Origin: Bradyrhizobium sp. WBAH42
GTDB lineage: Bacteria > Pseudomonadota > Alphaproteobacteria > Rhizobiales > Xanthobacteraceae
DNA: 64,000 nt
Assembly: GCF_024585265.1 (NCBI RefSeq)
Contig: NZ_CP036533.1
Location: forward strand, 4,101,001-4,165,000
Direction of reading: 5' to 3'
Shown: positions 41,253 through 58,700 of the stretch, piece after piece
Layout of the letters: each line of letters begins with the position of its first letter
How positions within the stretch are numbered: the first letter of the stretch is position 1
Made by a program: the position numbers and the translations under genes
The notes under the pieces: generated by a model
The model's database searches: none
Seen by the model: only the letters and a program-made list of their open reading frames with translations
What the model was told of the DNA's origin: nothing

Positions 41253-42101
41253 TCAAGCCGGGAACCAGTTGCGCTGGGGCAGCGATTGAACAATGGGGCC
41301 GGGGACCTGATCATGCAGCCGCCCCACGACATTGCCGCCGTCGATCTTGGCGGGCCGGTCGTGGACCGGGAGCAGGTAGCGCGAATTGCTGAGCAGCTTC
41401 TTGATCGCCGCCTTCTCCGCGCGCTTGGTGGTGCCGTGGTTGCCGGTGGTGCGCGGCTCCCAATCGTGGATTTCATGGAAGGGCGTGACGATCTGGTCGT
41501 TGAAATCGTAGATCACGTCGCCGCAGATGGTCGCGATGCCGTCGGCGGTGTGGACGATGATGTTCATCGAGCCCTCGGTGTGCGCGTTGGCGGCGTCGCA
41601 ATAGACGCCGGGCATCAGCTCGATCGGTCCGGTGATTTCGAGATCCAGGAAGCGCAGCGCGCTCTTGGTGTGCAGGCGGTCGATCAGGTGCTTGATGTCG
41701 GGCGCCGGATATTGCGGATGCATCAGGCCCGAGACGGAATATTCGAGCTCCTTGCGGTTGAGCACGACGGTCGTGTTCATCGGGAACAGATCGTCCTTGC
41801 CGGCATGGTCGATGTGCAGATGGGTGTGACAGACGAAGCGGACGTCGCCCATGCGGACGCCGTGGCGGGCGAGCTGGTTCTCGATCATGTTCTCATGATA
41901 CTGGAGTCCCCGCATACCCAGCGTCTCCATGATCTGGTTGGAGCGATAGCCGGTGTCGACCACGACCGGATAGGGGCCGCCGAGGATCAGGAAGCCGAGG
42001 GTGAGGACGCGGCGGGTGCGGCCGCAGTCGCGGCCGAGCACCAGGAAGCTCGATTCCAGCTCGATATCGCCGTAGTCCAGGATCTTGATCTCCAGCGCCA
42101 T
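41253..42101 (-). CDS. MBL-fold metallo-hydrolase (lactonase-like)
   Basis: The 282-residue protein has the metal motif HLHIDH (His94, His96, Asp98, His99), then later His ligands in AHTEGS and an Asp in ICGDVIYD. The arrangement is that of N-acyl-homoserine-lactonase-type MBL proteins, which open lactone rings. Here it lies in a catabolic operon with two other lactonase/amidohydrolase-type genes, so a pathway lactone is more likely than a quorum signal. Confidence 0.88.
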   Translation of the reverse strand: MALEIKILDYGDIELESSFLVLGRDCGRTRRVLTLGFLILGGPYPVVVDTGYRSNQIMETLGMRGLQYHENMIENQLARHGVRMGDVRFVCHTHLHIDHAGKDDLFPMNTTVVLNRKELEYSVSGLMHPQYPAPDIKHLIDRLHTKSALRFLDLEITGPIELMPGVYCDAANAHTEGSMNIIVHTADGIATICGDVIYDFNDQIVTPFHEIHDWEPRTTGNHGTTKRAEKAAIKKLLSNSRYLLPVHDRPAKIDGGNVVGRLHDQVPGPIVQSLPQRNWFPA

Positions 42102-42131: not shown

Positions 42132-43016
42132 TCAAAGCCGATAGACGCGCGTTGCCGTCGTCCTGAAGATCGCATCCTGTTGCTCCGCACTGAACGGGGC
42201 GGCGGCGGCGCGAAAGGCTCCGACGAGCTCGCGATAACTGGTCCACAATTTCTCGATCGGAAAATTGGAGCCGAACAGGCAGCGCTCGGCGCCGAAGATC
42301 GCGACGGTATCGGTGAGCACGGCGGCGATATGCGCGGGATCGTTGCGGTGGATGAAGGTGCCGAGCCCGGACAGTTTCGAGACCACGTTCGGACAAGTCG
42401 CGATCCGGGCCATCCCGGCGCGCCAGGCGGCCCGTCCAGCCGGCGAGAGATCCTCGAGCATGCCGGCATGCTGGAGGATGAAGGTCACGCCGGGACAGGA
42501 TTCGGCGAGCTGCGCAGCATCCGGCATCTGCGGCGTGAAGACCTGGAGGTCAAAACTCCAGCCGTAATCGGCCAGACGCGCGACGTTACGACGGATCACG
42601 GGATCGGCGCAGAGATCCGGACGCGGCGCGAAGCGATAGAGCGGGTTCTCATGCCAATGCAGCTGCATACGTACCCCGCGCAGCAGTGGGTAGCGCTTGA
42701 GGCGGTCAAGCTGCGGGCGGACGTCGTCCGCCGCGAAATTGGCGTAGGCGACGATGGCGTGCGGCCAGCCGTGTTCGTCGGAGGTGCGCTGCACCCAGGC
42801 TGCCTCCTCCTCGAAATGCTCGGGCGCCCAGTTGGTCTGCACATAGACCGAACGGGTGACGCCGCTGCCCTCGAGATCGTCGAGATATTCCTGGATCGGA
42901 TAATCGCGCCGGATCGGCTCGTACGGTCCGAAGATTCGAGGCTGCATCGGGCCGATCAGCCAGGGTAGGTCGGCCTGCCGCCAGATGTGATGATGGCCGT
43001 CGACAATACCGTTCAC
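42132..43016 (-). CDS. amidohydrolase family 2 (PDC/sugar-lactonase-like)
   Basis: The 294-residue TIM-barrel protein has the HHH metal motif VDGHHHIW (residues 5-12), GVRMQLHWHEN, a FILQHAG block, and the conserved terminal Asp position replaced or shifted in CLFGSNFP (most relatives have GSDWP). It resembles 2-pyrone-4,6-dicarboxylate lactonases and fuconolactonases. It overlaps the VWA gene by four bases. The Asn in GSNFP may alter catalysis. Confidence 0.88.
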   Translation of the reverse strand: MNGIVDGHHHIWRQADLPWLIGPMQPRIFGPYEPIRRDYPIQEYLDDLEGSGVTRSVYVQTNWAPEHFEEEAAWVQRTSDEHGWPHAIVAYANFAADDVRPQLDRLKRYPLLRGVRMQLHWHENPLYRFAPRPDLCADPVIRRNVARLADYGWSFDLQVFTPQMPDAAQLAESCPGVTFILQHAGMLEDLSPAGRAAWRAGMARIATCPNVVSKLSGLGTFIHRNDPAHIAAVLTDTVAIFGAERCLFGSNFPIEKLWTSYRELVGAFRAAAAPFSAEQQDAIFRTTATRVYRL

Positions 43017-44127
43017 GCAGCTCTCCTTCCCAGTGCCAGGACGTGGGCGACGATGGATGCGCTCGATCCGCCGTCCACGAGATCGTCGACGAAGCGTTCG
43101 ATCGCGACCAGCGCTTCGGTCTGCGGACGGAAGCCGGGACCTGTCGCGAGCGGCGTCAGCCAGCTCAGCCGCCAGGCCCGCCGCGATAATTTCGCGACGG
43201 CGTCGCGAAGGGCGTCCGGCTCGCCGCGCTCGAGCCCGTCGGACACGATGATTACGGCGGCGCCGCGGGCGTAGCCGCCGAACCGCGGGACCGCCAGGAA
43301 GGCTTGCAGCGCGTCGCCGATCCGGGTGCCGCCGTCCCAGTCGCTGACCAGATGGGCCGCGGCGCTCAGCGCCTGCTCGCGGCGTTTCAGCCGCAGCACG
43401 CGGGTGACACGGGTCAGCCGCGTGCCGAAGGTGAAGACCTCGACGTTAGGCGCAGCCTGCACCAGCGCATGCGCAAGCTTCATGTTCTCCTCGGTCCGGC
43501 TCTTCATCGAGCCGGAGACGTCGATCAGCAGCAAGACTTTGCGCGGCCGTTGCCGCCGCCTCATGTGGCCGAGGCGCAGGATCTCGCCGTCGCTGCGGAC
43601 GCTGTCGCGCAAGGTGCGGCGGAGGTCGGCAAAGGGGCCGCGGCGCGCCCGCATGCGGCGGTGCCCGCGCCGCCGCGGCAGGCGCCGCGGGGCCTCGCGA
43701 GCCAGGCGCCGGAGGGCATCGGTCGTGGAGAGCTGCGCGAAGCGGCGCTCGACCAGCGCCTCGGCGCGCGTCGCGGTCAGACCGGACTCGTTGGCGTCGT
43801 CGGCGAGCAGGGGCTCTTCGTCGCCGCGACCTTCCTCCTGCAGGCGGACGGTCTCGTCGTCCTCGCCGTCTTCGGCGCGCTCGATCGCTTCGCTGCCGCG
43901 GAAATGCAGGTCGAACAGCCGGTCGAAGGTGGCGCGGCGCTCGGGCGGCGGGGCGAGGGTGGCGAGCGCAGACTGCCTGATGTCCTCGAGCTTGCGTGGT
44001 CCGAGCAGCGCGATCGCGGCGAGGAACGCAGTGGTCTGCTCCGGCGCGACGGCGAAGCCGTTGGCGCGCAGCAACGCGACGAATGAAACAAAGGTGCGGG
44101 CGGCGCGTGGGAGCTGCAGATCGGTGC

Positions 44128-44131
<4 letters not shown>
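43013..44131 (-). CDS. coxE: VWA domain protein, CoxE-like
   Basis: The 372-residue protein has an acidic/arginine-rich middle and a C-terminal von Willebrand A domain with MIDAS motif DVSGSM near residue 205 and a later VSDG. CoxE-type proteins pair with CoxD ATPases in maturation of molybdenum hydroxylases. It overlaps the coxD-like gene by four bases, and both follow the molybdenum hydroxylase genes. Confidence 0.9.
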
Positions 44132-45009
<878 letters not shown>

Positions 45010-45019
45010 GGCCGAGCCT

Positions 45020-46042
45020 CTAGCGCCGCGCCTGCGGCCGCGCGCCGCCCTGGGCCTTGATTGCGCGCAGCACCTTCTCCGGCGTGATCGGCAGATCGTC
45101 GATGCGGACGCCGACCGCGTTGAAGATCGCATTCGCCACCGCCGGCAGCACCGGATTGGCGCACATCTCGCCAGGGCCTTTTCCCCCGAACGGCCCATCG
45201 GGGGCGGGACGCTCCAGCACGGCAATGTCATGCGGGCAGATATCACCGGGACCGGGCATCAGATATTCGACGAAGTCGCGGGGCCCGTGGACGGGATCGG
45301 GATAGTAGGGCTCAGGCGTCTCGTAGAGCGCGTGGCTGACGCCCATCCAGGCACCGCCGACCAGCTGCTGCTCGACCAGGCGCGGATTGAGCGCGCGGCC
45401 GAGCTCGTAGGCGGAATCCATCCGGACCATCGCAACTTCGCCAGTCTCGTCGTCGACCTCGACCTCGGCGACGAGGCAGGCATGGGCATAGCAGGTCGCC
45501 GGCGACATCTCGCCGGTTTCAGGATCGACGTCCGACAGCGGGACGAGGAAGATGCCGCGGCCCGAGATGGTCTTGCCCTGCTTGAACTGCGCGGCAATGG
45601 CGACGTCCTTGGTCGAGATCGAACGGTGCGGCGCGCCCTTGACGTGGATGTTGCCGCGCCCGTCGGTCTCGAGATCGGCGGCGTTGACCTCGAGCTCCTC
45701 GGCCGCGGCCTCCATCATCACGCCGCGCGCCTCGCGGGCGGCAGCCATCACGGCGTTGCCGACGCGATGAGTGCCGCGCGAGGCGAACGAGCCCATGCAA
45801 TGCGGGCCGGTGTCGGAGTCCGCCGTGTCGACGTAGACGTCCTCGACCGGCACGCCCAGGGTCTCGGCGCAGATCTGCCGAGTCACCGATTTCATGCCCT
45901 GGCCGAGGTCGATCGACGACAGCGCCACCGTGAACTTGCCGCTGGGATTGGAATGCACGAGCGCCTGGCTCGGATCGCCGCCGAGATTCATGCCGATGGG
46001 ATAGTTGATCGACGCCATGCCGCGTCCGCGATGCCTGGCCAT
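45020..46042 (-). CDS. molybdenum hydroxylase large subunit, C-terminal half (split)
   Basis: The 340-residue protein corresponds to the second Mo-cofactor domain of a normal 770-residue large subunit: RGMASINYPIGMNLGGDPSQ, SIDLGQGMKSV, and GGKGPGEMC with the catalytic Glu292. Its ATG (46042) directly follows the TAG (46045-46043) of the N-half in the same frame. An AGGAGG ribosome site with a six-base spacer precedes it, so it is translated separately. It must assemble with the N-half to bind the cofactor. Confidence 0.9.
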   Translation of the reverse strand: MARHRGRGMASINYPIGMNLGGDPSQALVHSNPSGKFTVALSSIDLGQGMKSVTRQICAETLGVPVEDVYVDTADSDTGPHCMGSFASRGTHRVGNAVMAAAREARGVMMEAAAEELEVNAADLETDGRGNIHVKGAPHRSISTKDVAIAAQFKQGKTISGRGIFLVPLSDVDPETGEMSPATCYAHACLVAEVEVDDETGEVAMVRMDSAYELGRALNPRLVEQQLVGGAWMGVSHALYETPEPYYPDPVHGPRDFVEYLMPGPGDICPHDIAVLERPAPDGPFGGKGPGEMCANPVLPAVANAIFNAVGVRIDDLPITPEKVLRAIKAQGGARPQARR

Positions 46043-47635
46043 CTAGCGCCTCCTGGTGCCGAACACGGATGAGAACCGGGTCGCGCCGTGCGATGGTGCG
46101 GCCGGGCGCGGCGGGGGAGGAGGCGGCGCCGGCGGCGGTGGCTCGCGCGGCGGCTCCCGCGTCGTCGTAGGCGGCGCGCGGTCATAGCTCGTGCGCTGCT
46201 GCGCAGGCGCGGCCGGCCGCGCCCGCGAATCCGTCGGTGTCGGCGGGATGACGGCGCGGCTGCCGCCACCGTCCTTGCGCGAGGAGGCGCGCCTGAACTC
46301 GTCGCGGATCGGCCATTTGGCCTTCTCCGCCGCAACCTGGACGCATTCGATCAGCGCGGTGTTCTTGGCCTCCCGCCGGTGCGCCTTCATGTCGCCGTCG
46401 CGATAGGCGTTCAGAATCCGGAACTCCATCGGGTCCATGCCGACGAGGCCCGCGAGCTTGTCCATCTGGCATTCGATGGCAAAATCCATCGCGGTGACGC
46501 CGAAGCCGCGCATGGCAGTCGCCGGCGTGCGGTTGGTGAAGACGCAATAGACATCGCCATAGACGTTCGGGATGGTGTAAGGGCCCGGCAGGTGGGCGGC
46601 GCATTTCACCGCGGCATAGCTCGACAGCCGCGTATAGGCACCGCTGTCGAAAAAAGCGCGGATCTTGCGCGCGACGATGCGGCCGTCGCGCATCACGCCG
46701 TCCTTGATGTAGATGCGCTCGGCGCCCCGCGGCGGGCCGTATTGCATCTCCTCCTCGCGGCCGAATACGTAACGCACGGGACGCCCCGTCAGCATGGCGC
46801 CGAGGATCGCGAGCGGTTCGGTCAGGGTATCCACCTTGCCGCCAAAGCCGCCGCCGACGGTGCCGCCGATGAAGTGGAAGGTGTTGGAGGGCACGTCCAG
46901 GATCTTGGCGCAGGTGTCGACCGAGAAGAACAGCGCCTGCGTCGAGGTGTAGACGACGTAGCGGCCGTTGGTGTCGGGCGCGGCGATGGCGCCGTTGGTC
47001 TCGGTCGGAGCGTGCTCGATCGGCGACATCTGGTAGCGCTGCTCGAGCACGTGGTCCGCGGTTGCGAGCGCGGCATCGGCATCGCCAAAGCGCAAGCGCT
47101 GGTGATCATAGACGTCGTGATAGATGAAGGCGTTCTTCGGATAGGTCTCGTTGACCACGGGGGCGCCGGGCTTCAGCGCATCCTCGACGTCGAACACGGT
47201 CGGCAGCGGCTCGTAGTCGACCTTGACTTTTGCGATCGCCTCGAACGCCTCGCGCTCGCTGTCGGCGACGATGGCGAGGATCGGTTCGCCCTTGTAGCGG
47301 ACCTTGTCGACGGCGAGCGACGGCTCGTCATCCTTGCCGAAGTTGATCAGGCTGAGCAGCGTGTTGAGATTGCGTGGGACGTCGGCGCCGCGGATGATCC
47401 GGCGCACGCCGGCCGAGCGCTCGGCCTCGGTGGTATCGATCCGGCGCAGCCTTGCATGGGCCTGGGTCGAACGAACGACCTTCAGGTGCAGCATGCCCTG
47501 CAACTGGTGATCATTGAAATAGCTGGACGTGCCCGTGATGTGGCCGAGCATGTCCTGCCGCTGCGTGCCCTTGCCGATCTCCTTCAGGTTATCGTCACGC
47601 TCGTCGGCGAAGATGTCCTTGCGCAGTTCCAGCAT
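46043..47635 (-). CDS. molybdenum hydroxylase large subunit, N-terminal half with proline-rich tail
   Basis: The 530-residue protein carries the a/b hammerhead and first Mo-cofactor domain (GGTVGGGFGGK, NRTPATAMRGFGV, IECQMDKLAG). Homology ends near residue 442 (AEKAKWP). An 89-residue tail rich in Pro, Arg and Ser follows, including PPREPPPPAPPPPPPRP, then TAG. In other members the chain continues directly into the part encoded here by the next gene. The tail may be a docking segment for the separate C-half. The 2Fe-2S gene is nine bases upstream. Confidence 0.91.
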   Translation of the reverse strand: MLELRKDIFADERDDNLKEIGKGTQRQDMLGHITGTSSYFNDHQLQGMLHLKVVRSTQAHARLRRIDTTEAERSAGVRRIIRGADVPRNLNTLLSLINFGKDDEPSLAVDKVRYKGEPILAIVADSEREAFEAIAKVKVDYEPLPTVFDVEDALKPGAPVVNETYPKNAFIYHDVYDHQRLRFGDADAALATADHVLEQRYQMSPIEHAPTETNGAIAAPDTNGRYVVYTSTQALFFSVDTCAKILDVPSNTFHFIGGTVGGGFGGKVDTLTEPLAILGAMLTGRPVRYVFGREEEMQYGPPRGAERIYIKDGVMRDGRIVARKIRAFFDSGAYTRLSSYAAVKCAAHLPGPYTIPNVYGDVYCVFTNRTPATAMRGFGVTAMDFAIECQMDKLAGLVGMDPMEFRILNAYRDGDMKAHRREAKNTALIECVQVAAEKAKWPIRDEFRRASSRKDGGGSRAVIPPTPTDSRARPAAPAQQRTSYDRAPPTTTREPPREPPPPAPPPPPPRPAAPSHGATRFSSVFGTRRR

Positions 47636-47644
47636 GGTCTGACC

Positions 47645-48121
47645 TCAGGCGCTGGCCCGGCCGCCCGCGGCGGCGAGGATGGCATTGATGATCGGCTCGT
47701 AGCCGGTGCAGCGGCAGATGTTGCCGGAGATCGCCTCGACCACGTCGGCCCGGCTCGGGGTGGGATTGCGGTCGAGCAGCGCCTTTGCGGCCATCAGCAT
47801 GCCCGGCGTGCAATAGCCGCATTGGGCGGCAAAGTTGTCGGCGAAGGCGCGCTGCAGCGGATGCAGGTTCGGGCCTTGCTTCATGCCGTCGAGTGTCTCG
47901 ACCGAGCGGTCGGCGACGGTCTCGGCGAGCGTCAGGCAGGAGAGGTGAAGCTCACCATCGATCAGGACGCTGCACGTGCCGCAACCTCCCTGGCCGCAGC
48001 CGAATTTCGGCGTCATATCGCCGATCAGCTCGCGCAGCGCGACCAGCAGATTGGTGCCGCCGTCGACGAAGATCGCGACGTCGCGGCCGTTGTGGCGAAA
48101 TTGCAGGGGGATCTTTGTCAT
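47645..48121 (-). CDS. molybdenum hydroxylase 2Fe-2S subunit
   Basis: The 158-residue two-cluster ferredoxin uses C42, C47, C50, C62 (CGQGGCGTCSV) and C101, C104, C136, C138 (CGYCTPGM, CRCTGY). It transfers electrons from the Mo centre to the FAD subunit. It lies between the FAD subunit gene (six bases) and the large-subunit N-half gene. Confidence 0.95.
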   Translation of the reverse strand: MTKIPLQFRHNGRDVAIFVDGGTNLLVALRELIGDMTPKFGCGQGGCGTCSVLIDGELHLSCLTLAETVADRSVETLDGMKQGPNLHPLQRAFADNFAAQCGYCTPGMLMAAKALLDRNPTPSRADVVEAISGNICRCTGYEPIINAILAAAGGRASA

Positions 48122-48127
48122 GGCGAG

Positions 48128-48946
48128 CTATTCCTGTCCCGATAGCAGGCGTCGCAAATGCACGCCGACGATCTCGCGGCGATACCAGGCGCTGCCGAGC
48201 GCGTTGTCGGATGGCGATGTTCCTTCCGTGGCCGCAGAGGCCGCGGCTGCGATGGTCGCGGCATCCAGCGAGCGGCCCTCCAGCGCGCGCTCGGCGGCGC
48301 GGGCGCGGATCTGGGTCGGGGCCATCGAGCCCAGCGCAATCCGCGCACCTGCGATCCGTCCGCCGCTGACCGGCAGATGCGCGGCGAGCGTGATCACCGA
48401 GCCGCCCTTCGGCTTGATGCGCGCGATCTTGCGATAACGGAACGCCTCGCTGCTGGCCGGCCGCGTGCAGGACACCGACAGCACCAATGTCCCGGCCTGG
48501 CGCTCGCGCCCCTGCAGAAACTCCTCAATCGGAATATCGCGCGAGCCGAAGCCGCCTTGCACGGCGACTGTGGCATCGAGCGCCAGCAGCGCCACGGTGA
48601 AATCGCCGTAAGGGTTCGGCGCGAACAGATTGCCGCCGACCGTGCCCATGTTGCGCACGGCAGGACCGCCGATCGAGCGGGCAGGGGCATGCAGGAAGGC
48701 GAGATCGCGCTCGGCGAGCACGCGCGCGAAGGTGACGCCGGCGCCGAGCGTGATGCGCGGACCCGAGGCATCGATCCGCGTCAGTGCCTGGTCCTGCGCC
48801 CGGACGATCGTCGAGATCGATACGTCGCCTTCGTTCAGCGCGCGCATCACCAGCGTGCCGCCGCCGAGATAGCGCGCGCTACGGTCCGACGACAGCGCAC
48901 CGGCCGCCTCGCTCGCATTCGTAAAGGTCTTTACCGTCACGGCCAT
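48128..48946 (-). CDS. molybdenum hydroxylase FAD-binding subunit
   Basis: The 272-residue protein has GGGTLVMRALNEG (first FAD loop, near residues 28-40) and VRNMGTVGGNLFAPNPYGD (second loop). It is the CoxM-type subunit for the split hydroxylase. It follows the SRPBCC genes by three bases. Confidence 0.93.
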   Translation of the reverse strand: MAVTVKTFTNASEAAGALSSDRSARYLGGGTLVMRALNEGDVSISTIVRAQDQALTRIDASGPRITLGAGVTFARVLAERDLAFLHAPARSIGGPAVRNMGTVGGNLFAPNPYGDFTVALLALDATVAVQGGFGSRDIPIEEFLQGRERQAGTLVLSVSCTRPASSEAFRYRKIARIKPKGGSVITLAAHLPVSGGRIAGARIALGSMAPTQIRARAAERALEGRSLDAATIAAAASAATEGTSPSDNALGSAWYRREIVGVHLRRLLSGQE

Positions 48947-48949
48947 GGC

Positions 48950-49393
48950 TCAAGCGGCCTCCTTCAGATGGCGGCGGATCGCTTCGAATCCGGCCTGATA
49001 GATGTCTTCGGCGACCATGTGGGTGATGCGGTCCTTGTCCTCCGGCTTCGTCGTGAATCGCGACTCCCAGTGCCAGAAGGTGCGGTCGCCGTCGGTCACC
49101 GGCAGCAGCCGGACATGGGCGACGTAGTTGAACATCGGGACCGGCGTATCGAGCAGGCAGTAGCTGAAGGTCTGCTCGAGGTCGGACAGCGCCAGCAGCT
49201 GCTCGCGCAGCTCAGAGCCGTCCTTGAGCTTGAATCGCCTGACGCAGCCGATCTTGTCCGCGGATTGCGCGCGTTCGATCGAGGAGGTCGCAACCGCCGG
49301 ATGCCAGCGGTCGTGCCCGTTGAAATCGCGCAACACGTCCCACACCGCGTCGGTCGGTGCGTTCAGGATCGTGCTCTTGACGATATGCGGCAC
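48950..49393 (-). CDS. SRPBCC-family protein (second of a tandem pair)
   Basis: The 147-residue START-like ligand-binding protein has the polyketide-cyclase/CoxG-like opening STILNAPTDAVWDVLRDFNG, ADKIGCVRRF and VTDGDRTFWHWES. It is clearly a paralogue of the preceding gene. I chose the GTG at 49393, just after GGAGG; the ORF extends upstream into the previous gene. It may bind substrate or product of the hydroxylase, or recruit the complex to the membrane as CoxG does. Confidence 0.86.
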   Translation of the reverse strand: MPHIVKSTILNAPTDAVWDVLRDFNGHDRWHPAVATSSIERAQSADKIGCVRRFKLKDGSELREQLLALSDLEQTFSYCLLDTPVPMFNYVAHVRLLPVTDGDRTFWHWESRFTTKPEDKDRITHMVAEDIYQAGFEAIRRHLKEAA

Positions 49394-49395
49394 GG

Positions 49396-49833
49396 CTAGC
49401 CTCCGAACACACGCTTCAGGGCGTCGAAGCCACCCTGGAATACGCCGCCGCCGATATTGCTGACGAGCTCGGTCTCCCGTTCCGGCGCGCAGTCGAATTC
49501 GGCGGTCCATTCCATGAAGGTCTGGTCGCCGTCGGTGACAGGCGTGAGCCGCAGGGTGGCGACGTAGTTCTCGACGCCCATCGGCGATTCCAGGATCGAA
49601 TAGGTGCAGAACATGTCGTAGTCGGAGAGGCCGAGCAGCTTCTCGCGGATGCGGTCACCGTTGCGCAGCCGGAAATCCCTGACACAGCCGATCTTGTCGG
49701 CGGGCTCGCCGCCCTCGATCCGGCTTTCGGCGATGGCCGGATGCCAGTTCGGCAGGCCGTTGAAATCGCGTACCCGCGCCCAGACGCGGTCATTGCGGGC
49801 GTTGACGACAGTGGAGACGTAGACGCGGGCCAT
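49396..49833 (-). CDS. SRPBCC-family protein (first of a tandem pair)
   Basis: The 145-residue START-like protein shares VRDFNG-x2-x-WHPA, ADKIGCVRDF and VTDGDQTF blocks with its downstream paralogue. It probably forms a hydrophobic ligand cavity. It lies 11 bases after the flotillin-like gene and two bases before its paralogue. Confidence 0.88.
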   Translation of the reverse strand: MARVYVSTVVNARNDRVWARVRDFNGLPNWHPAIAESRIEGGEPADKIGCVRDFRLRNGDRIREKLLGLSDYDMFCTYSILESPMGVENYVATLRLTPVTDGDQTFMEWTAEFDCAPERETELVSNIGGGVFQGGFDALKRVFGG

Positions 49834-52790: not shown

Positions 52791-53624
52791 TCATCGCGCG
52801 CCGATCGCCTTGAATTGCCGCACCTGTTCCGTCAGCGCTCGTTCCACCGGCAGCCGCTCCATCGAGGACGCCCCGTAGAAGCCGTGGCAATGACGGGTGT
52901 TCTTCATGATGAAATCGGCGTCCGCGGGATCGGCGATCGGGCCGCCATGCGCCAGCACCAGGATGTCCGGATTGACGCTGAGCGCGGCGGTGGCCCAGGT
53001 GTCGATCCGCGCCGGGCAGTCCCTGAGCTTTGGCGCGGTCTGCGCACCGATCGTGCCGCCGGTCGTCAGGCCCATGTGGCAGACGATGATGTCGGCGCCG
53101 GCGATCGCCATCGCCGCGGCTTCCTTCTCGCTGAACACGTAGGGCGTTGTCAGCATGTCTTTGTCGTGCGCCTTGGCGATCATGTCGATCTCGAGCGCAT
53201 AGGACATGCCGGTCTCTTCGAGATTGGCGCGGAAGGTACCGTCGATCAGGCCGACGGTCGGAAAGTTCTGGACGCCGGCAAAGCCGAGCGCCTTCAGCTG
53301 GTCGAGAAAGACGTCCATGTCGCGGAAGGGATCGGTGCCGTTGACGCCCGCCAACACCGGGGTCTGGTCGACCACGGGGAGCACTTCGTTCGCCATTTCC
53401 AGCACGATGGCGTTGGCATCGCCATACGCCATCAGGCCCGCGAGCGAGCCACGCCCGGCCATGCGGTAGCGGCCGGAATTGTAGATGACGATGAGGTCGA
53501 CGCCGCCGGCTTCCTCGCATTTGGCTGAGAGCCCGGTGCCGGCGCCGCCGCCGACGATCGGCTCACCGCGCCTTGCCATGTCGCGAAACCTCTTCAGCAG
53601 CGCCGTGCGTTCAAACCTGGCCAT
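52791..53624 (-). CDS. phosphoenolpyruvate hydrolase-family TIM-barrel protein
   Basis: The 277-residue protein has [21 protein letters not shown] at its start, then [29 protein letters not shown], and [13 protein letters not shown]. These are hallmarks of the PEP-hydrolase-like family (PF09370), commonly beside a Tm-1/UPF0261 gene, as here. The enzymatic role is not established with confidence. It follows the LivF-UPF0261 fusion gene by three bases. Confidence 0.9.
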
Positions 53625-53627
53625 CGG

Positions 53628-55838
53628 TCACCTCGCGAGTCTCCGCCGCCCACCGGTGCGCCCGAACAGGGTTCGAAACGTACTGACGATGGCGGCGGCG
53701 AAATCGGGATCGTTGATGTTCTTAGGCGTGCGAATGAGCTGGCGGTTGCCGGTCTGGCGCACGGTGCGCTCCAGCGTGCGGAACAGCGCGGCGTCGGCGT
53801 CCGGATCCCAGAACGGCTGTCCCCGCGCGTCGAGGGCGGAGACGCCGCCCTCGGGCAGGAAGAAGCGCACCGGCCCATCCATCTGGTTCAGCCGCTCGCC
53901 GATCCAGCGGCCCATGCGCTCGTTCTCTTCCACAGTGGTCCGCATCAACGTCACCTGCGGATTGTGGACGTGGAATTTGCGGCCGCGATAGCGTTCGGGA
54001 ATGGTGTCGGGCGCGCCGAAATTGACCATGTCGAGCGCGCCGACGGAGCCGACATAGGGCAGGCGGCTGCGGATGACCGAACCAAAGCGGTCTTCGGTGG
54101 CGGGAAACACGCCTCCCATCAAGAGGTCGCAGACCTCAGTCGTGGTGAGGTCGATCACCCCGGCGAGCTGGCCGGACTCGACGAGCTTCTCCATCGAGCG
54201 TCCGCCGACGCCGGTGGCATGGAACACCAGGCACTCGAAATCCTCGCGCAGGTCGCTAGCGATCTTCTGCACGGCCGGCGTGGTGACGCCGAACATGGTG
54301 ATGCCGATTGCGGGCAGCCCGCCGGCCTCGCGCGCCGTTGCGGCACGCGCGTCGAGCCGCGCCTTGACCATGCCGGCGAGCGCATTGGCACCGTTGGCCA
54401 GCACCGCGCGCGAGATCGAGTTCAGCCCCTGTACGTCGGTGACCGAGTACATCATGGTGATGTCGGCCGGGCCGACATAGGGCCCGACATCGCCTGATGC
54501 GACCGAGGAGATGATCAGCTTGGGCACGCCGACCGGCAGCGCGCGCATGCCCGGGGCGACCAGCGAGGCCGCGCCCGAGCCGCCGGCCGAGATCACGCCG
54601 GCGACATTGCCCTGGCGCCGCAGCCAGTTCGCAAACGCATCTGCCATTGCGGTCACCGCGGCACCACGGTCAGTGCCGAACACGGCGGAGCCACCGCGGC
54701 CGTGGTTCAGGGCGATCTCCTGCGCGGAGACATCGCAGGAAGAATGCTTGCCACTGGTCGAGACGTCGACTAGCCGCGTGCGCAGGCCGCTTTCGGCGAT
54801 GATGTCGCGGATGTAGCGCAGCTCCTGGCCCTTGGTATCGAGCGTGCCGACGACCAGCACCACCGGAGGGCCCGAGGCCTGCGCCGTCACCGGCTCGCGC
54901 TTGCGCCGCGCCGTCTCGTCGAGCCGCGCGACTTGCGTCGAGAGCGTCCGCGCCGCGGCCTCGATGCGCGCGATCGGTACCGGTTGCGACCATCGCGTCG
55001 GCAGCGTCGGGTTGGAGATGTAAATGCGCACCGGCCCGTCGCGGCGGGGCACCGGCGTCGGCTTCGTTTCGGCGGCGGATGCCGCGACGTCGATCTCCGG
55101 TTCGAGCTCCGCATGAAGCCCGACGCCGAGCAGGCGCTGCTGCAGTTCCCGGTCCGCCGCAAGGCGCGCGGAGTCGATGATGCGATTGATGCGGCCGTTG
55201 ACCATGATCGCGACGTTGCGCGAAATCGCGGTGGCGACGCCGATGTTTTGCTCGATCACGAGCACGGACATGTCGCCGTCTTCGCCCAGCCGCAGCAGCA
55301 TCTCCTCGACCTGCGCGACGATGACGGGCGCGAGGCCTTCGGTCGGCTCGTCCATGATGAGCAGATGCGGATTGGTGAGCAGCGCGCGCGAGATCGCCAG
55401 CATCTGCTGTTCGCCGCCGGACAGCTGGCCGCCGCCGTGATCCCGACGCTCGGCGAGCCGGGGAAAGGTGTCGTAGATGCGCTCGACGGTCCAGGCGCCC
55501 GAACGCAGGCCGCCGGCGAGCCGCAGGTGCTCGTCGACGCTGAGTGAGCGCCACAGACGGCGGCCCTGCGGCACATAGCCGACGCCGAGCCGCGCGATCT
55601 GGGCCGGCGGCCGCCGCGTGACATCCTCGCCGCGCACGCGGATCGATCCGCCGCTCACGCCGACCAGCCCCATGATCGCCTTGCACAGCGTGGTCTTGCC
55701 CATGCCGTTGCGGCCGACGACGGAGAACACACCGCTCTCCAGCGTGAGATCGACGCCTTGCAGCGCATGCGAGTGGCCGTAATAGACGTCGAGGCCGCGG
55801 ACCTCGAGTGCGGCACCGCTGCGGCGGACCTCATTCAT
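53628..55838 (-). CDS. LivF-type ABC ATPase fused to Tm-1/UPF0261 domain
   Basis: A 736-residue fusion. Residues 10-240 are a LivF ATPase: Walker A GRNGMGKT, signature LSGGEQQ, Walker B LLIMDEPTEGLAP, H-loop VIEQN. An Ala/Pro/Arg linker (about 245-320) leads to a UPF0261 / Tm-1-like ATP-binding domain (VVLVVGTLDTKGQELRYIRD near 324, SAGGSGAAS, FHATGVGGRSMEKL, TTTEVCD). Tm-1-like proteins are P-loop-free ATP binders of unclear activity in bacteria. The fusion physically couples transport to a downstream enzyme (the PEP-hydrolase-like partner). It overlaps livG by eight bases. Confidence 0.93.
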   Translation of the reverse strand: MNEVRRSGAALEVRGLDVYYGHSHALQGVDLTLESGVFSVVGRNGMGKTTLCKAIMGLVGVSGGSIRVRGEDVTRRPPAQIARLGVGYVPQGRRLWRSLSVDEHLRLAGGLRSGAWTVERIYDTFPRLAERRDHGGGQLSGGEQQMLAISRALLTNPHLLIMDEPTEGLAPVIVAQVEEMLLRLGEDGDMSVLVIEQNIGVATAISRNVAIMVNGRINRIIDSARLAADRELQQRLLGVGLHAELEPEIDVAASAAETKPTPVPRRDGPVRIYISNPTLPTRWSQPVPIARIEAAARTLSTQVARLDETARRKREPVTAQASGPPVVLVVGTLDTKGQELRYIRDIIAESGLRTRLVDVSTSGKHSSCDVSAQEIALNHGRGGSAVFGTDRGAAVTAMADAFANWLRRQGNVAGVISAGGSGAASLVAPGMRALPVGVPKLIISSVASGDVGPYVGPADITMMYSVTDVQGLNSISRAVLANGANALAGMVKARLDARAATAREAGGLPAIGITMFGVTTPAVQKIASDLREDFECLVFHATGVGGRSMEKLVESGQLAGVIDLTTTEVCDLLMGGVFPATEDRFGSVIRSRLPYVGSVGALDMVNFGAPDTIPERYRGRKFHVHNPQVTLMRTTVEENERMGRWIGERLNQMDGPVRFFLPEGGVSALDARGQPFWDPDADAALFRTLERTVRQTGNRQLIRTPKNINDPDFAAAIVSTFRTLFGRTGGRRRLAR

Positions 55839-56613
55839 GGCCGCCTCCGAGATAAAGCTCCTGCACTTCAGGGTCGGATTGAATTTCTTCCGGCAGGCCC
55901 TCCTTGAAGATGCGGCCGTTGTGCATCATCGTGACGCTCTCGACGACGCGCAGAGCAACGTCCATGTCGTGCTCGATGATGATGTAGCCGATATGGGCGG
56001 GCAGGGAGGTCAGGATCTCGATCAGCTCGGCCCGCTCCGTCGGAGAGAGGCCGGCGGCCGGCTCGTCGAACAGCACGAAGCGCGGCGCGCCGGCGAGCGC
56101 GAGCGCGATTTCGAGCTGGCGCTGCTGGCCGTGCGCGAGCTCGGCCACGCGCTGGTCCTTCACGGCGGATAGATGCACAGCCTGCACGAGATTGTCGGCC
56201 GCATGCATCAGCGCATCATTCTGTCCCGGACGCAGGAACGAGAAGCGTCCGCGCGAGACGCCGCGGCAGGCGAGATAGACGTTGTCCTGTACGGTGAGGC
56301 CGGGGAACAGCGCCGAAATCTGGTAAGTGCGACGCAACCCGCGGCGGATGCGCTCATAAGGCGGGAAATGCGTCACGTCCTCGCCGAAGAAGCGGATGGT
56401 GCCGGAGGAGGGCGGGAAGTCGCCCGTGATGCAGTTGAACAGCGTGGTCTTGCCGGCACCGTTCGAGCCGAGCACGGCGCGCCGCTCGCCCGGTCGCACG
56501 GTAATGGTGACGTCGGTCAGCGCCGCGAGCGCGCCGAACAGCCGCGTCACGCCGCGCAGCTCCAGTGCAGCGCCGGCACCGACGACGGAGAGGCGTTGGG
56601 CGACGCTATCCAT
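55831..56613 (-). CDS. livG: Liv-type ABC transporter ATPase (LivG family), second system
   Basis: The 260-residue ATPase has Walker A GSNGAGKT near residue 50, Walker B FVLFDEP, HGQQRQ in the signature position (LAHGQQRQLEIAL), and H-loop IEHDMD. RTYQISALFPGLTVQDN supports the LivG type. It overlaps livM by eight bases and the LivF fusion by eight bases. Confidence 0.92.
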   Translation of the reverse strand: MDSVAQRLSVVGAGAALELRGVTRLFGALAALTDVTITVRPGERRAVLGSNGAGKTTLFNCITGDFPPSSGTIRFFGEDVTHFPPYERIRRGLRRTYQISALFPGLTVQDNVYLACRGVSRGRFSFLRPGQNDALMHAADNLVQAVHLSAVKDQRVAELAHGQQRQLEIALALAGAPRFVLFDEPAAGLSPTERAELIEILTSLPAHIGYIIIEHDMDVALRVVESVTMMHNGRIFKEGLPEEIQSDPEVQELYLGGGHE

Positions 56614-57688
56614 GGTGGCGCCCTCCGCCGGAGCGGCTCACCTCGCGCCGTTGATACTGACGCCAGCGCTGCCAGAGGCCGATGACCCCGTCCGAGGACC
56701 AGAACACGATGGCGAGGAAGCCGAGCCCGATCAGCAGGCGGAAGCGGTTGCCGTCGAGCCCGAGCCGGACCAGGAAGTCGAGCGCGAAGGTGCGTAGCAG
56801 CACGAAGATCAGCGCGCCGATGTAGGGACCGATCGGGCGCGTGATGCCGCCGACGACGGCGATGATCAGCACGTCGATGCAGGCCCCGACGCTGACCGAG
56901 CCCGGCGAGATCTGGCGATAGTTCCAGACCTGGAGCACGCCGGCGAGCGCGGCGACGAAAGACGCGAAGGCATAGGCTGCGACGCGGTGCGCATTGACGT
57001 TGAAGCCGAGCGCCGCCATGCGCCGCGGATTGTCGCGCACACCCTGAAGCGCGAGGCCGAACGGGGCGCGCGAGACATATTCGACCGCGAAGTAGCAGAG
57101 CGCGGCGACCGCGAGCACGACATAATAGAAGGGGATGTCGGCGCGCCAGTTCACGCCCCAGAAGTGCGGCGTCGCCACGTTGTTGATGCCGGTATGGCCG
57201 TTGAAGATCGCCCAGTTCTGGTTGGTGAAATAGTAGAAGGCGGCGCCAATGGCGAGCGTGATCATGATGGTGTAGATGCCTTCGGTGCGCACCGCGAGCG
57301 CGCCGCCGAGGGTGCCGAAGGCGGTCGCCAGCGCCAGCGCCATCGGCACTGCGAGCCACCACGGCCAACCCAGGCTGATATTGGCGTTGCCGCTGACGCC
57401 GAACACGGCGACCATGTAGGCCGAGAAGCCCGCAATGGTAAGCTGCATCAGGCTGACCATGCCGCCATAGCCGGCGAGGAACATCAGGCTCAGCGCCATG
57501 GTGCCGAGGATCAGCGTGGTGGCGAAGATCTCGATCAGGAAGAAGCCGCTCGCGATTAGCGGCATGACCAGGAGGATGGCCGCGACGGCCCAGGCGGCGG
57601 GGTTGTTGATCTCCGGCCATGTCCGGGTCGGCCGCTGCGCCTTGGTGGCGCGGCCTACGGCGACGGGGGCTTCGTGGGCGAGCGACAT
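56606..57688 (-). CDS. livM: Liv-type ABC transporter permease (LivM family), second system
   Basis: The 360-residue permease has about ten hydrophobic segments, an early MFLAGYGGMVSLMQLTIAGF (LivM-type first motif), and VVGGITRPIGPYIGALIF near the C-terminus. A 35-residue hydrophilic N-terminus precedes the first segment. It starts one base after livH ends and overlaps livG. Confidence 0.91.
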   Translation of the reverse strand: MSLAHEAPVAVGRATKAQRPTRTWPEINNPAAWAVAAILLVMPLIASGFFLIEIFATTLILGTMALSLMFLAGYGGMVSLMQLTIAGFSAYMVAVFGVSGNANISLGWPWWLAVPMALALATAFGTLGGALAVRTEGIYTIMITLAIGAAFYYFTNQNWAIFNGHTGINNVATPHFWGVNWRADIPFYYVVLAVAALCYFAVEYVSRAPFGLALQGVRDNPRRMAALGFNVNAHRVAAYAFASFVAALAGVLQVWNYRQISPGSVSVGACIDVLIIAVVGGITRPIGPYIGALIFVLLRTFALDFLVRLGLDGNRFRLLIGLGFLAIVFWSSDGVIGLWQRWRQYQRREVSRSGGGRHHG

Positions 57689-57689
57689 C

Positions 57690-58700
57690 TCAGCGCCTCG
57701 CCAATAGGCCTTGCGGCCGGATCGCCAGCACCACCACCATGATCAGGAAGGTCACGACGATGGCGTAGGTCGGGATGTAGACCGAGCCGAGCTGCTCGGC
57801 GAGGCCGATGATCACCGCACCGAGCGCCGCGCCCGGGATCGAGCCCATGCCGCCCACGATCACGACGACGAGGGACGCCAGCAGGAAGCGGATGTCTTCG
57901 CCGGGCGATAAGGACTGGAATGTGCCGCCGACGACGCCGGCGATGCCCGCAAGCCCCGCGCCGAAGGCGAACACGGCGACGAAGACGAGTTGGATGCGTA
58001 CGCCGGTCGCGGCGAGAATGTCGCGATCGTCGACGCCGGCGCGGACGATCATGCCGATCCGGGTGCGGTTGAGCGCGAGCCACATCGCGACGCCAATGAC
58101 CACGGAGGCCGCGAAGATCACGAGCCTGACGAGCGGATATCTGAGATAGACCGGCTCGCCCGAGGATTTAATCGCCGTGACCAGCGGCAGCTCGATCGGA
58201 CCGATCAGCCAGTTCGGGGTCTGGATCTGGTAGAAGTCACCGCCGCAGGCCCACAGCATGAGATCGGCAAACACGATCGACAGTCCGATCGTCACCATGG
58301 TCTGCCTGAGATCCTGGCCCTCCATCCGGCGGAACACGATCACCTGCAGCAGCACGCCGACAAAGGCGGTCAGGATAAAGGCGACGATGAAGCCGAGGAT
58401 CCACGAGCCGGTCGATGTGCTGATGGCGTAGCCGACATAGCCGCCGAACAGATAGAGCGAGCCGTGCGCGAGGTTGACGTTGCGCATCAGGCCGAAGATC
58501 AGGGTGAAGCCGCTGGCGACGAGGAAGTAGAGGCCGCCAAGCGTGATGCCGTTGAACACCGCGTTGAGGAAGACGCGCTTGCGGCCGATCGCCTCTTCCA
58601 GCCCCGGCGGCCAGACCGCGAAGATCAGCCAGAGCACGACCGCAATCGCGATGATCGTAATCAGCGCCCAGGCCGGATGGCGTTCGACGAAGCGGCTCAT
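57690..58700 (-). CDS. livH: Liv-type ABC transporter permease (LivH family), second system
   Basis: The 336-residue permease has an extra N-terminal segment (residues 10-32), then the LivH motif GGLYFLVASGFTLIFGLMRNV, and the C-terminal VVIVGGMGSIPGAALGAV coupling block. It is the first gene of the uninterrupted minus-strand cluster that runs to 39030. The upstream 455 bp hold repeats and presumably the promoter. Confidence 0.92.
   Translation of the reverse strand: MSRFVERHPAWALITIIAIAVVLWLIFAVWPPGLEEAIGRKRVFLNAVFNGITLGGLYFLVASGFTLIFGLMRNVNLAHGSLYLFGGYVGYAISTSTGSWILGFIVAFILTAFVGVLLQVIVFRRMEGQDLRQTMVTIGLSIVFADLMLWACGGDFYQIQTPNWLIGPIELPLVTAIKSSGEPVYLRYPLVRLVIFAASVVIGVAMWLALNRTRIGMIVRAGVDDRDILAATGVRIQLVFVAVFAFGAGLAGIAGVVGGTFQSLSPGEDIRFLLASLVVVIVGGMGSIPGAALGAVIIGLAEQLGSVYIPTYAIVVTFLIMVVVLAIRPQGLLARR

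Follow-up and report, generated by a model that had tools for sequence, protein, structure and literature searches.

In Bradyrhizobium sp. WBAH42, the molybdenum (Mo) subunit of a hydroxylase encoded in a 64,000-nucleotide stretch of DNA (the window, by which the whole stretch is meant) is shown by gene comparison to be specified by two separate genes: one for an L chain, which carries the hammerhead and MoCoBD_1 domains, and one for an M chain, which carries MoCoBD_2. The locus as a whole is probably explained by a two-chain L/M subunit of the NdhL/NdhM type, in which the split is ancestral to the clade and the L chain acquired, in a later branch, a Pro-rich arm that is predicted to be disordered and ends in a conserved tip. 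The L, M, FeS and FAD chains would assemble into an NDH-like heterotetramer, whose maturation could be aided by an AAA+/VWA protein pair, and the arm may act as a tether, its tip docking the hydroxylase to a membrane scaffold of SRPBCC and flotillin proteins encoded in the same operon. The genome of the strain consists of one contig of 8.29 Mb, and its close relatives are Bradyrhizobium.

Table 1. Genes and sequence elements of the hydroxylase locus (positions are those of the window)
Feature	Position	Strand	Remark
N-half, L subunit, NdhL-like: a/b hammerhead, MoCoBD_1 and Pro-rich tail, 530 aa	46043..47635	-	stop TAG at 46043-46045
N-half tail, residues 443-530	46046..46309	-	predicted disordered from about residue 470
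Conserved tip RFSSVFGTRRR, residues 520-530	46046..46078	-	ribosome site within its last codons
AGGAGG, C-half ribosome-binding site, within the tip codons	46049..46054	-	
C-half, M subunit, NdhM-like: MoCoBD_2, 340 aa	45020..46042	-	
[2Fe-2S] subunit (Fer2, Fer2_2)	47645..48121	-	
FAD subunit (FAD_binding_5, CO_deh_flav_C)	48128..48946	-	
SRPBCC protein 2 (Polyketide_cyc2), stand-alone	48950..49396	-	start estimated
SRPBCC protein 1 (Polyketide_cyc2)	49396..49833	-	
Flotillin-like membrane scaffold (Band_7 and Flot), 972 aa	49845..52763	-	
AAA+ ATPase	44128..45048	-	start estimated; presumably CoxD-like, from its position
VWA_CoxE protein	43013..44131	-	
Amidohydro_2 hydrolase, downstream	42132..43016	-	
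Metallo-beta-lactamase-fold hydrolase, weakly lactonase-like	41253..42101	-	
PEP_hydrolase-like protein	52791..53624	-	
ABC ATPase fused to UPF0261	53628..55838	-	one 736-aa frame
LivG/LivM/LivH-type ABC transporter genes	55831..58700	-	

The window enzyme is, as judged from its sequence, a molybdenum hydroxylase of the xanthine-oxidase family. Pfam assigns Ald_Xan_dh_C (34-145) and MoCoBD_1 (180-409) to the N-half and MoCoBD_2 (3-267) to the C-half, which completes the domain set of the family, and the partner subunits are encoded adjacent to the Mo-subunit genes: the FeS and FAD genes lie upstream of the N-half, while those for the AAA+ and CoxE-like VWA proteins lie downstream of the C-half. 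The motif AMRGFG is invariant over the 51 rows of alignment A2, and is comparable to the AFRGFG of NdhL given in PMC8305194. Neither chain attained the NCBIfam equivalog cut-offs, as is to be expected because both are half-length. The nearby transporter and hydrolases invite the guess that the substrate is a heterocycle or an aromatic acid.

Among solved structures, the best PDB matches of the two halves are the large and medium Mo subunits of nicotinate dehydrogenase (3HRD_A, E 1.2e-59, for the N-half, and 3HRD_B, E 2.4e-46, for the C-half); the predicted structure of the L chain alone (mean pLDDT 78) also has 3HRD_A as its best fold match, with a TM score by target of 0.88. A joined L+M model was set aside (mean pLDDT 47.8), its N rows being misaligned, with identities near 20%. 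Matches of the N-half to solved structures stop at about residues 410-445, the best one at 439, in agreement with the end of homology near residue 442 given by the sequence-only reading. That reading had also held that the two cofactor domains form one chain in known family members, which is contradicted by the enzyme of Eubacterium barkeri, whose NdhL and NdhM are, like the window's chains, the products of a cut between both cofactor domains (3HRD). NdhL has 425 residues, is matched to residue 415 and lacks a long arm, whereas the window's L chain has one. The fused Mo subunits, such as 4-hydroxybenzoyl-CoA reductase alpha, CO dehydrogenase CoxL and the xanthine dehydrogenases, share the domains, the FeS and FAD partners and the AAA+ and CoxE-like VWA neighbours, but consist of one chain where the window has two. 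A two-chain Mo subunit cut at this boundary is thus already known, if little noticed; it is the conserved arm that looks new.

This arm corresponds to the Pro/Arg-rich tail that had been described ahead of the stop, and it contains 21 Pro and 16 Arg; its length is 88 residues (443-530), and not 89 as first given. Residues 470-530, for which AlphaFold2 yields pLDDT values mostly below 50, are predicted to form a flexible, disordered arm. The tip RFSSVFGTRRR ends 76 of 78 L chains of the Bradyrhizobium group (those of 74 of the 76 Bradyrhizobium loci described below, plus L124-L127), the other two lacking the T, and its R, S and V residues are each written with three to five synonymous codons across the group. 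Among the other tailed L chains, 21 of 27 match RF[SA][ST]xxGxRRR. Deviating tips read SRFISGxRRR in L149-L152 and RFASNSIGRRR in L136, and only GTRRR is left in L131; the degenerate tips of L131 and L136 offer natural tests of which tip residues count. The terminal RRR is present in 105/105 delimited tailed L chains, six with an insert between the halves included (74 of the 76 Bradyrhizobium loci and 31 others; L058 and L076 are not delimited). In alignment A2, which includes 42 tailed rows and lacks L131, the most common residue of these rows has a mean frequency of 0.82 across the final 15 positions, compared with 0.48 in the linker. In a database search, the tip or a close form of it ends 111 of the best 120 of 7139 relatives; the nine that lack this end are P0061 and P0107, to which we return below, P0051, whose tip is a variant, and P0038, P0041, P0042, P0064, P0067 and P0071, which stop early or finish in another frame. 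The tail end is, to judge from these comparisons, selected at the protein level. The degenerate DNA pattern of the tip has no second copy in its own genome, and since a backward control also matched once, the single-copy count alone says nothing against chance.

The arm varies from about 70 to 190 residues across the tailed branch, and in L155-L163, L169 and L170 (50-60% N-half identity) the L chain has no tail and stops shortly behind a conserved MSS or ESS. The tailed rows group as a single clade within a tail-less grade, both in a tree where they number 38 (SH-aLRT 100) and in a 25-row tree where they number six (100/100), so that the tail was gained once, in an enzyme that was already split. 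As to what the tip does, its Arg-rich end could bind membrane or nucleic acid directly, a reading with which the constancy of RRR agrees; it is unlikely, since the F, S and G positions would have no need to be constant if the tip acted by charge alone.

A further indication comes from the gene neighbourhood, which was counted in loci with at least 5 kb of upstream sequence, a threshold lowered from 6.8 kb because no locus extended that far. Seven loci were excluded for short sequence or an incomplete L frame (L130, L131, L139, L141, L153, L169 and L170); among these, L130 shows no SRPBCC gene in 1.1 kb, and L131 shows two, with no flotillin gene in 2.8 kb. Two SRPBCC genes are present in all 29 tailed loci counted, and flotillin in 28 of them, that of the 29th (L146) lying just beyond the stretch, as seen in L198. 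In the nine tail-less loci counted, no flotillin gene was found, and one SRPBCC gene occurs in three. SRPBCC2 is stand-alone in the tailed loci where it is seen, the Pro-rich segment being carried there by the Mo enzyme. Polyketide_cyc2 is the sole Pfam assignment of the window's SRPBCC genes, whose products may resemble CoxG.

A related operon is found apart from the hydroxylase. In five tail-less genomes, a separate flotillin-SRPBCC1-SRPBCC2 operon is preceded by Liv, ABC and UPF0261 genes, with one copy truncated at a contig end, and the same operon occurs in five genomes in which the C-half had no match at the cut-off used; a PEP_hydrolase-like gene is present in six of these ten alternative clusters. 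In all ten (L182-L191), the SRPBCC2 frame runs on into an ADH/MDR oxidoreductase, the two parts being joined by a Pro/Ala-rich linker; the MDR part was recognized by a regular expression in seven and by eye in the other three, and Pfam confirmed the domains in three of the ten. The tip, sought with one regular expression, has no match in the ten clusters. They were drawn from 17 of the stretches with a flotillin match, which also included two tailed loci (L192 and L198) and five others; in these five (L193-L197), a flotillin of the cluster type lacks adjacent SRPBCC genes. Flotillin alone is weakened as the arm's partner by the related operon located elsewhere in five tail-less genomes, and the link of the tail is thus with the merged operon.

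The fusion clusters join SRPBCC2 covalently, by a linker, to another oxidoreductase, and the arm is read as a tether. That its tip attaches the hydroxylase to the membrane scaffold of SRPBCC and flotillin, as a non-covalent counterpart of the SRPBCC-oxidoreductase linker, is a plausible but tentative proposal, short of being the likelier case; that the motif-tipped arm actually stands in for the covalent Pro-rich SRPBCC2 link of the related cluster is possible, and to be held more loosely. Since the tail was gained once, its association with flotillin and SRPBCC amounts to a single shared event on the tree, suggestive rather than probative, which operon merging alone could explain, and the reduced or altered tips of L131, L136 and L149-L152 also speak against a docking function. 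In other systems, a small protein encoded beside a soluble oxidoreductase has been linked with bringing that enzyme to the membrane: CoxG proteins are reported to recruit G3PDH to the membrane in Sulfolobus (PMC11962113) and suggested to recruit CO dehydrogenase in O. carboxidovorans (PMC4240915). The window shares this gene arrangement but differs in having two SRPBCC genes and a flotillin, and an enzyme that itself bears a motif-tipped arm. No publication was found that joins flotillin, xanthine dehydrogenase and Bradyrhizobium, and searches pairing two of flotillin, SRPBCC and molybdopterin gave no title on such an operon among the matches listed.

The arm could instead dock to the AAA+/VWA maturation pair, for the purpose of cofactor insertion and not of localization. 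Wherever a tailed locus extends far enough downstream, the AAA and VWA genes do come after M; both are, however, also present in eight tail-less loci (L155-L160, L162 and L163), neither being seen in L161 or L169, which indicates that the pair does not require the arm and leaves this alternative unlikely.

The last codons of the tip also harbour the ribosome site of the M gene, which raises the question of whether the tail end is a mere by-product of selection for that site, without a function as protein. Outside this site, AGG and AGA account for 3.7% of all codons for Arg in the L genes, whereas both Arg codons of the ribosome site are AGG or AGA in 94 of the 99 loci without an insert; this enrichment, taken together with the constancy of RRR, implies selection on two levels, for a ribosome site in the DNA and for RRR in the protein. 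RRR is kept, with varying codons, in each of the six delimited loci that have an insert, GGAG being lost in three and retained in three, so that RRR is not free of the DNA constraint in all six. The by-product explanation, which draws on the same codon bias and on the persistence of GGAG, is very unlikely in view of the RRR retained where GGAG has gone, of the RFSSVFG that lies upstream of the ribosome site with constant protein and varied codons, and of the tail-less relatives, which have a purine-rich stretch ahead of M without any tail.

The evidence that the two chains are made separately comes from the junction itself and from its distribution. On the minus strand, the junction reads ACC AGG AGG CGC TAG ATG GCC: the N-half ends in TAG (46045-46043), the next in-frame codon is the ATG of the C-half (46042-46040), and AGGAGG (46054-46049) precedes that ATG by six bases, all as the sequence-only reading had reported. 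When 84,980 species genomes were scanned with the C-half, 377 relatives were obtained, of which the best 80, all Bradyrhizobium, were taken; the N-half is readable in 76 of these loci, the other four being cut by contig ends. A stop separates the halves in 76/76, and a sense codon at this position, which would have spoken for a broken single-chain gene, was found in none of them. The stop is TAG in 27, TGA in 48 and TAA in one, and the distance to the next ATG is 0 (28 loci), 1 (28), 2 (19) or 3 bases (1). The halves are out of frame in 47 of the 76, where reading through the stop would therefore give no joined chain.

Broader searches, with the own genome counted, gave C-half matches in 5/289 genomes of the class (E 1e-60), 50/297 of the order (E 1e-50) and 19/398 of the phylum (E 1e-45), and 47 loci from them were examined, some species possibly being counted twice and part of the readings resting on two later comparisons. 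All readable loci with a C-half identity of at least 57% are split, and split loci occur in further families and further orders of this class as well. Seven loci of family f176 (L140, L141 and L143-L147) have 570-1135 bases between the L and M genes, occupied by a GFA-like protein in L140 and L143 and by an EamA/DMT-type transporter in L141 and L144-L147 (both named by eye); with another gene between the halves, the two chains must be made separately. Two side observations concern gene content: P0015 is a database match of 692 residues that combines FeS domains and the N-half in one protein, and G501, of the same genus, has neither a C-half nor a flotillin match at the cut-offs used. The split is, on these gene comparisons, fixed and old, and ancestral to a clade whose members come from several families and from at least two orders of the class.

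Regulated read-through of the stop, which would yield both split and joined forms and had been put forward as a source of occasional joined protein, draws on the in-frame ATG that abuts the stop in the window, an arrangement seen in 28 of the 76 Bradyrhizobium loci. It is highly improbable and was rejected, as the halves share a frame at short distance in only 34 of 117 delimited loci overall, the identity of the stop is not conserved, and genes intervene in the f176 loci; the in-frame nature of the window's TAG is incidental. The own genome also holds 19 further N-half matches at E 1e-3, and among the seven whose stretches were examined, five are single-chain (by script), a sixth, L084, has a frame that continues through the C-part, and the seventh, L082, has no match to the C-part. 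Two joined proteins, P0061 (872 aa) and P0107 (869 aa), occur among the best 120 of 7139 N-half relatives; the stretch ahead of their M chain lacks the tip and, judged by eye, is in a different frame, which an indel would produce, so that they look like out-of-frame joins. A sequencing error or a recent nonsense mutation in a normally single-chain gene, for which the frame preserved across the window's TAG, the fused paralogues and the two joined proteins could be cited, is practically untenable given the stop in every readable Bradyrhizobium locus, its variable identity and spacing, the intervening genes and the indel-like character of those joins, and with it decay is refuted. The proposal that the two-chain form of the Mo subunit is an evolved one, and its tail a dedicated part, is, by contrast, supported by the split in every readable Bradyrhizobium locus and in further families and orders, and by the selection acting on the tail end.

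The relationship to NdhLM was addressed with the 25-row tree, computed under a mixture model with rows hand-picked from the 61 of an earlier tree. NdhLM falls among other sequences, outside the window's clade, and the window enzyme is hence likened to it in its working without being filed as a member. A tree uniting the two was rejected (AU p 0.009), a result that leans and does not prove, given the long branches and the fact that the group was named after the first tree; the data thus lean towards a split in the window's clade that is independent of that of NdhLM. A second small Mo-subunit clade contains both states, L164 and L179 being split and L165 fused.

The finding suggests that the Mo subunit has been split at the boundary between its cofactor domains more than once, and shows that the split form is stably maintained in bacteria common in soil, whose proteins bear only generic names. 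The tip provides a short, testable motif by which a flotillin/SRPBCC cluster is linked to a molybdenum hydroxylase, and the gene fusion of SRPBCC2 suggests that the cluster serves as a platform on which different oxidoreductases can be mounted. Should the arm indeed stand in for the covalent link, the SRPBCC/flotillin platform would be an exchangeable chassis for unrelated oxidoreductases.
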